DNA from: Chloroflexota bacterium
GTDB taxonomy: Bacteria; Chloroflexota; Anaerolineae; Promineifilales; Promineifilaceae
Assembly: GCA_018004935.1 (NCBI GenBank)
Contig: JAGNBF010000044.1
Span: forward strand, 9,051-59,614
DNA length: 50,564 nt
Direction: 5' to 3'
Positions 8,080-25,354 of the stretch are shown here, in pieces. A program made the position numbers and the translations under genes. Positions within the stretch are counted from its first letter, which is position 1. Every line of letters begins with the position of its first letter. Below the pieces are notes generated by a model. That model was not told the origin of the DNA. It did not search any database and saw nothing but the letters and a program-made list of their open reading frames with translations.

Positions 8080-8337
8080 GGGTGTGTTTCAAATGAGTTG
8101 AATAACTAATTGTTGAACTGTTCATGAAGCGGTAGACGCTCTAGGGCGATTGCCTATGTGGCGTTCCCCCACCCCCAACCCCGCCCCCAGGGGTGGGGAG
8201 TTTTTTTAAGGCGGGCAAAATCGGAGGTGAAACCCCCAATTTTGCCCGCCGAGTGGATTCCCCTGGTTAATCATTCAACAATTCACGAATTCACCGATTA
8301 ATTATTTTCTTCCTCTCAACCGAAATGAAACACACCC
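8080..8337. mobile_element. MITE-like element I, copy 1 (258 bp, 9-bp target duplication)
   Basis: Ends are GGGTGTGTTTCA and its perfect complement TGAAACACACCC, with partial pairing continuing to GTTGA. Immediately outside lies the direct repeat TTTACCAAA (8071-8079 and 8338-8346), a clean 9-base target-site duplication. The centre holds GC-rich hairpins: CCCCGCCCCC/GGGGTGGGG near 8175-8199 and GGCGGGCAAAAT / ATTTTGCCCGCC at 8210-8221 and 8239-8250. There is no coding capacity. The second copy is at 17872. With no transposase in view it must be mobilised by an enzyme encoded elsewhere. Confidence 0.88.
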
Positions 8338-14832: not shown

Positions 14833-14904
<72 letters not shown>

Positions 14905-14916
14905 AGGGGGGAAAGG

Positions 14917-14943
14917 AAAAGCAGGCTTTTGGCCTGCTTTTTT
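14917..14943 (-). terminator. Hairpin between tRNA-Gly and tRNA-Cys
   Basis: Stem AAAAGCAGGC / GCCTGCTTTT with a 5-base loop and a T run on either strand. It may partially end transcription or serve as a processing site within the tRNA transcript. Confidence 0.7.
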
Positions 14944-14949
14944 ATGAAG

Positions 14950-15021
14950 AGCGGGCGATGAGATTCGAACTCACGGCCTTCTCCTTGGCAAGGAGACGTT
15001 CTACCGCTGAACTACACCCGC
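14950..15021 (-). tRNA. tRNA-Gly (GCC)
   Basis: 72 bases on the minus strand. Acceptor GCGGGTG / CGCCCGC (one G-T pair), anticodon stem TCTCC/GGAGA with anticodon GCC, T-arm with GAGTTCGAATCTC. CCA is not encoded. Confidence 0.95.
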
Positions 15022-15076
15022 ATACCATATGCAATTGTAGCAAACTTTTGGGTTTTTACAACTTGTTTGCTTGCAG

Positions 15077-15149
15077 TGCCAGGACCCAGACTTGAACTGG
15101 GGACACCTGCATTTTCAGTGCAGTGCTCTACCAACTGAGCTATCCCGGC
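15077..15149 (-). tRNA. tRNA-Phe (GAA)
   Basis: 73 bases on the minus strand. Acceptor GCCGGGA / TCCTGGC, D-arm GCTCAGTTGGTAGAGC, anticodon stem CTGCA/TGCAG with anticodon GAA, discriminator A. It is first in the transcript behind a strong promoter. Confidence 0.95.
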
Positions 15150-17714: not shown

Positions 17715-17771
17715 ACGGAATTTTGGAAAAGAGGCGAGCGATAGCTTGCTCGGTTTTTCCAGCCTGGGATC

Positions 17772-17871
17772 TAAGTAATCGTCCAAAAATAAGTTCCGCA
17801 CAGACCTGACAGGTTTCCGAAAACCTGTCAGGTCTAAATCGGGAAGTTATTTTTAGATGTTCACTAAGTAA
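17772..17871. repeat. Palindromic element, core A (full-length copy)
   Basis: The whole unit is nearly palindromic: left AGTAATCGTCCAAAAATAAG and right (minus strand) AGTGAACATCTAAAAATAAC, then TTCC, then the core arms AGACCTGACAGG / CCTGTCAGGTCT. It is bordered by CTAAGT on both sides. Its right border is interrupted by element I. Confidence 0.85.
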
Positions 17872-18043
17872 GGGTGTGTTTCAAATGAGTTGAATAATGA
17901 GCCTTTGGGAATTCAGGGGATTGACAGAGATGTACGGGCTGGCCTTGTGCCTGCCCCGTCTGGGGCAACCACAAGGGTTGCCCGTACCCCACGAAACCCC
18001 AAAGAACTTATTTTCTTCCTCTCAACTGAAATGAAACACACCC
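17872..18043. mobile_element. MITE-like element I, copy 2 (172 bp, 9-bp target duplication)
   Basis: Ends GGGTGTGTTTCA / TGAAACACACCC as in the copy at 8080. The flanks ACTAAGTAA (17863-17871) and TCTAAGTAA (18044-18052) form a 9-base duplication with one mismatch. The centre is different from copy 1: it holds the imperfect hairpin GTACGGGC...GCCCGTAC (17932-17987), related to that at 1170-1225. It has landed exactly at the joint between a core-A and a core-B element. Confidence 0.87.
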
Positions 18044-18121
18044 TCTAAGTAATCGTTCGGAAATAAGATAGGTGGCGCGGTCAGGAGACTGGCCACAGCA
18101 AACCGCTAAGTTATTACTAAG
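18044..18121. repeat. Palindromic element, core B
   Basis: Left shoulder CTAAGTAATCGTTCGGAAATAA, core GGTGGCGCGGTCAGGAGACT followed by GGCCACAGC, right shoulder CTAAGTTATTACTAAG. The core folds as GTGG/CCAC and GGTC/GACT around AGGA. Confidence 0.82.
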
Positions 18122-25120: not shown

Positions 25121-25354
25121 CCGAGTGAACGCTTACCCGAAAATCTATCAGGTCTAAATCGGGAAGTTGCCACTAAGTAATCGTCCAAAAATAAGTTCCG
25201 CACAGACCTGACAGGTTTTCGGAAACCTGTCAGGTCTAAATCGGGAAGTTATTTTTAGATGTTCACTAAGTGAGCGTCTAAAAATAACTTGGGTGGCGCG
25301 GTCAGGAGACCGGCCACAGCAAAACCGGAAGTTATTCTTGGATAATTACTAAGT
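25121..25354. repeat. Element array: truncated A, complete A, complete B
   Basis: A family-II end (GAGTGAACGCTTAC, to 25136) abuts a core-A unit that has lost its left half (25137-25171). Then ACTAAGT (25172), a full core-A element, ACTAAGT (25265), a full core-B element, and ACTAAGT (25348). A and B share the shoulder ...TCxAAAAATAA. The last ACTAAGT supplies the stop codon of the cdaR gene on the minus strand. Confidence 0.85.

Follow-up and report, generated by a model that had tools for sequence, protein, structure and literature searches.

Three non-autonomous DNA transposons, termed here A, I and B, are nested in the window (the whole stretch of 50,564 nucleotides analyzed here), and they are likely to have inserted successively, in the order B, I, A. 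We infer this order chiefly from one base and from the relative divergence of the elements. The initial annotation described a nested record that includes a MITE making 9 bp duplications, and this general picture is correct; however, it had A and B in place before I arrived, and is probably wrong in putting A ahead of I. The genome containing the window is 8.0 Mb in 229 contigs and is 96.6% complete.

Organization of the nested locus

The nested structure is real, and is confirmed in the window sequence at 17863–18052. The 172 bp element I is bordered by the 9-mers ACTAAGTAA (17863–17871) on the left and TCTAAGTAA (18044–18052) on the right, with a core-A unit to its left and a core-B unit to its right. 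The two 9-mers differ by a single A/T mismatch, which had been noted initially but left unused, and which proves to be the informative base. From 17770 to 18120 the plus strand reads TC-TAA-(A)-TAA-GTAA-(I)-TC-TAA-(B)-TAA-GGG, and the boundaries, slightly revised from those first assigned, are 17775–17864 for A, 17872–18043 for I, and 18049–18117 for B.

Element B, delimited from its family ends and the focal copy, is a 69 bp MITE beginning with GTAATCGTTCGG and ending in TTAC, with a right arm about 11 bp shorter than in full copies. Its target duplications are the TAA at 18046–18048 and the TAA at 18118–18120, the latter followed by the GGGTGAG of what would be the original site. The left TAA lies inside the 9 bp duplication that I appears to have made later, whose intact right copy is TCTAAGTAA and ends with GTAA, the first four bases of B. 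Element A is a 90 bp MITE with the core-A palindrome, running from GTAATCGTCC to GATGTTCAC. The TAA at 17772–17774 is its left duplication, and belongs to the TCTAA (17770–17774) that is putatively the first part of I's left 9 bp duplication, cut off from the remainder by A. In the sequence TAAGTAA (17865–17871), TAA is then the right duplication of A and GTAA the presumed end of I's left duplication.

The window contains further copies of these families. A second I-family copy of 258 bp (8080–8337, plus strand) has an exact 9 bp duplication, TTTACCAAA, and lies in a palindromic repeat; a second copy of A (25177–25266, plus strand) has TAA duplications and directly abuts a B-like unit (GATGTTCACTAAGTGAGCG). 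An Rfam search of the window found three tRNAs and nothing else; these genes lie on the minus strand at 14833–15149.

Element I and its relatives

The terminal inverted repeats of I are perfect over 12 bp (GGGTGTGTTTCA/TGAAACACACCC), and its extended end occurs 116 times in forward and 115 times in reverse orientation in the genome, with no occurrence of a reversed control pattern. The proposal that I is a MITE making 9-base duplications, which genome copies without them would contradict, survived examination of the 43 copies with both ends: an exact 9 bp duplication is present in 28 of these (33 when permitting a single mismatch), and none has an exact repeat of a different length in the range of 4–13 bp. 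Swapping flanks among copies gives an exact 9 bp match in only 13%, and the flanking repeat is therefore beyond chance. Likewise, in other Chloroflexota 51 of 72 scorable pairs of I-type ends have exact 9 bp repeats, and the carriers of such ends, where named, are overwhelmingly Chloroflexota, mainly Anaerolineae; on this basis the window is taken to come from an uncultured bacterium of that class. Copies in the window's own genome are mostly 146–270 bp and at most 538 bp in length, and no frame longer than 101 aa was found in the longer copies examined.

In a few other copies in this genome (L062 and L125) the two 9-mers differ as reverse complements at the center; the flanks of L125, for instance, are TTTGGTAAA and TTTACCAAA. 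Inversion or recombination of the segment lying between two copies of the palindrome would give this pattern.

The interior of the 172 bp subtype of I is occupied by a fourth MITE-like repeat, D (TCTTTGGG...CCCAAAGA, approximately 17899–18009, plus strand). Many free copies of D elsewhere in the genome (TCTTTGGGAATTCAGGGG...CCCAAAGA, about 111 bp) are flanked by 8 bp direct repeats (L020–L030, L049, L066, L117 and others), and D is thus itself a MITE. Insertion of D into I with its usual 8 bp duplication was considered and rejected, as the 172 bp copies of I show no such duplication and the fusion arose otherwise; it follows that the fusion of D and I is older than the spread of the 172 bp subtype.

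Full-length relatives connect I to a transposase family. Ends of the type GGGTGTGTTTCAWWTSRGTTGA also border elements of 1575–1724 bp with open frames of 484–539 aa. Among genomes of the same family, I-type ends surround full-length elements of 1626, 1724 and 1672 bp, and a 1575 bp element in another member of the Chloroflexota (L207) has I-type ends and a perfect 9 bp duplication, ATTAAATTG. The open frames are present in the 1724, 1672 and 1575 bp elements, and their transposases score 285, 293 and 270 bits, respectively, against the NCBIfam ISKra4 model (NF033572; cut-off 205 bits), a model that recognizes these proteins while Pfam gives no match. With ends in common with autonomous ISKra4-type insertion sequences, a fixed 9 bp duplication, and short, multicopy, non-coding copies, I can be classed as a MITE derived from an ISKra4-family element.

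For the genome that contains the window, neither the family model nor a protein search detected an ISKra4 transposase, and the enzyme has thus been lost or is supplied from elsewhere. MITEs are not defined by having an active transposase beside them in the genome. Many contigs of this assembly end inside copies of I, so a collapsed full-length element may be hidden in it. Searches of the open-licence literature gave no account of Chloroflexota MITEs of the ISKra4 type.

Elements A and B

A and B have a common start, GTAATCGT, and a near-inverse sequence at the other end; full copies of the B family start with GTAATCGTTCGG and end with CGAACGATTAC. All 42 copies of A have identical 3 bp flanks (33 TAA and 9 TTA), compared with a mean of 27.9 and a maximum of 36 when flanks are swapped, and 28 of 31 copies of B have identical flanks against a swapped mean of 13.1. 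Nearly all identical flanks in both families are TAA or TTA. The base preceding the flanked A element is nearly always C and the following base nearly always G, which gives CTWAG as the target, with TWA duplicated, a preference that B shares. As a consequence, A and B often abut with one shared CTAAG and so look joined.

A and B are MITEs. A different affiliation, in which they are REP/REPIN-like hairpins moved by a Y1 (IS200/IS605-like) single-strand transposase and not MITEs of a DDE element, would account for their being short, palindromic, high in copy number and often tandem, and it fits with two negative results: no autonomous partner turned up among the long paired ends in loci taken from genomes, and the genome of the window gave no match to a PF01609 or PF13586 transposase. 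Y1 transposases make no target duplication, and the 3 bp flanks of A and B covary, TAA with TAA and TTA with TTA, in the manner of a genuine duplication. The REP/REPIN class is distinguished by the absence of a target duplication, which does not describe A and B, and we regard this affiliation as very unlikely. An IS200/605-like interpretation had been prompted by the presence of CTAAG on both sides of the copies seen first, and was dropped on account of the TTA/TTA copies.

For an 8 Mb, MITE-rich genome, the failure to find PF01609 and PF13586 transposases is out of the ordinary; such genes may have been lost, or the assembly may break at mobile elements. Genomes of the same family (G011 and G021; loci L343, L346 and L347) have A/B-type ends, GTAATCGTYC, around different palindromic cores, and only MITE-like copies with such ends were seen in G011 and G021.

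Order of insertion

The history that we favor for the focal locus, now with A and B as MITEs, has three steps. The empty site was probably ...CCTGGGATCTAAGGGTGAG..., and B would first have entered C-TAA-G, duplicating TAA and producing GATCTAAGTAATCG, the left flank plus B. Second, I would have been moved by an ISKra4-family transposase across the left junction of B, with a 9 bp staggered cut that placed a copy of TCTAAGTAA at each end of I; the intermediate with B and I only would read GATCTAAGTAA-(I)-TCTAAGTAATCG. Third, A would have entered the TAA of I's left duplication, splitting it into TC-TAA-(A)-TAA-GTAA.

There are several features that bear on this order. First, the 9-mer duplicated by I includes GTAA, the first four bases of B, which upholds the initial placement of I after B. 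Second, the first base of the left 9-mer is A's own second-last base (A ends ...GTTCAC), and when A and one TAA are removed the left copy becomes TCTAAGTAA, identical to the right copy. A is therefore most likely the last arrival, within I's left duplication, contrary to the proposal that A and B came first and I later, and A and B were most likely never directly joined at this locus. Third, every observed base follows from the order B, I, A with no mutation required: T occupies both 17770 and 18044, A is flanked on either side by TAA, GTAA precedes I, and GGG follows B. Fourth, no private substitution is found across the 90 bp of the focal A, which has an identical copy elsewhere, while the 172 bp of the focal I contain four, together with a deletion; were A as old as I, the chance of zero private changes in A would be about 0.09–0.12. 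Gene conversion among copies of A could, however, keep the focal A identical.

The order first proposed, in which A and B, whichever came first, met at a common TAA and I then split the joint, has points in its favor. Direct A-B joints sharing one TWA are present elsewhere in the genome (L277, L278, L284, L288 and L289), where the joint lacking I would correspond to GTTCACTAAGTAATCGTTCGG at the focal site, and I does enter B-like and core-A-like sequences, namely the right arm of a B element (L003) and a core-A-like palindrome (L099). But since A ends ...GTTCAC the joint 9-mer must have been ACTAAGTAA, and a later A-to-T change at 18044 is required in the right copy. One such substitution would rescue this order, and 9 bp duplications in this genome with two or fewer mismatches do differ at about 4% per base. 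The substitution is nevertheless unexplained, and would coincidentally restore the T that precedes A, at 17770; moreover, A could be no younger than I, yet it has no private change. The single-base likelihood ratio, calculated with I's private substitution rate of 2.3–2.7% per base, is about 110–126 for the order B, I, A over this one. The placement of A relative to I depends mainly on that one base, and we consider prior joining of A and B unlikely. The associated claim that I was active after A and B had spread is supported for B-like and core-A-like sequences by the L003 and L099 insertions, but not for the subfamily of the focal A, whose copies are near-identical and look younger than I.

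It is also conceivable that I inserted first, into a bare TCTAAGTAA site, with its duplication giving rise to two CTAAG targets that A and B then entered; CTAAG is the preferred A/B target and is present in both 9-mers. This order predicts TAAGTAA to the right of B, whereas the observed sequence is TAAGGGTGAG (TAAGGG), and the simplest origin for the GTAA of the left copy is the beginning of B. Barring an unseen deletion of GTAA, B's right flank contradicts it, and we regard it as scarcely credible.

Target choice of element I

Within the window's own genome, 30 of the 43 copies of I lie in GATTTNNNAAATC-like sites, which correspond to the center of a palindrome. This palindrome, GCGATTTRSYAAATCG, recurs at about 740 sites across the 8 Mb, many of them arrayed in tandem with a period of 102–106 bp (for example at 1951–2782 of contig C11 and 10965–11828 of contig C21). 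It is the main landing site of I, and the focal insertion at TCTAAGTAA departs from this strong preference. In other Chloroflexota the preferred 9-mer of the I family approximates AWWTSAWWT, with no flanking signal, and this contrast points to a possible shift in the preference of the transposase. It is possible, although we hold this tentatively, that I specialized here on the center of the palindromic repeat (GGGCGATTTRSYAAATCGCCC) through a change in target preference while the transposase was still present in the lineage. There is no clear −35 signal at a fixed distance from I insertions, and the enrichment of TTGACA is unconvincing; a −35 peak at position 1 in this genome is read as a product of TTTACCAAA-type sites.

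Discussion

Nothing in the biology of the locus goes beyond that of ordinary transposons; it offers a neat argument for dating and, possibly, a shift in target preference. It shows by example how the order deduced for three insertions is reversed by a mismatch within a target duplication, and a transposase family can be named for a MITE family that is spread across the Chloroflexota. Since the genome contains more than 100 copies of I, and A and B are also numerous, nesting alone can date how active orphan MITE families were relative to one another, and the apparent change in target preference between genomes is testable with the full-length relatives.

Similarities to known systems differ among the elements. 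A and B may be compared with elements of the IS5 and PIF/Harbinger (Tourist) groups, as PIF/Harbinger elements duplicate the trinucleotide TWA (PMC4482050). A and B resemble these in the TWA target duplication only and are at most candidate members, and no autonomous IS5/PIF-type element with their ends (GTAATCGT) was found among the loci searched. Element I has the same terminal repeats as full-length Chloroflexota insertion sequences of the ISKra4 family (p-MULT 4/Mutator superfamily, ISKra4 group), and its 9 bp duplication falls within the 8–9 bp of p-MULT/ISKra4-group elements (PMC3942029), but unlike the insertion sequences of this family it lacks a transposase gene. Several members of the ISKra4 group are reported to target sites upstream of sigma-A promoters (PMC3942029), whereas I here targets the center of a palindromic repeat. 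Insertion into REP or other extragenic palindromes is known for ISPpu9, ISPpu10, ISPa11, ISPsy8 and others (PMC1525189), and I is like these in preferring the center of a high-copy palindrome; it is unlike them in being a non-autonomous, ISKra4-type element that makes 9 bp duplications and resides in Chloroflexota.
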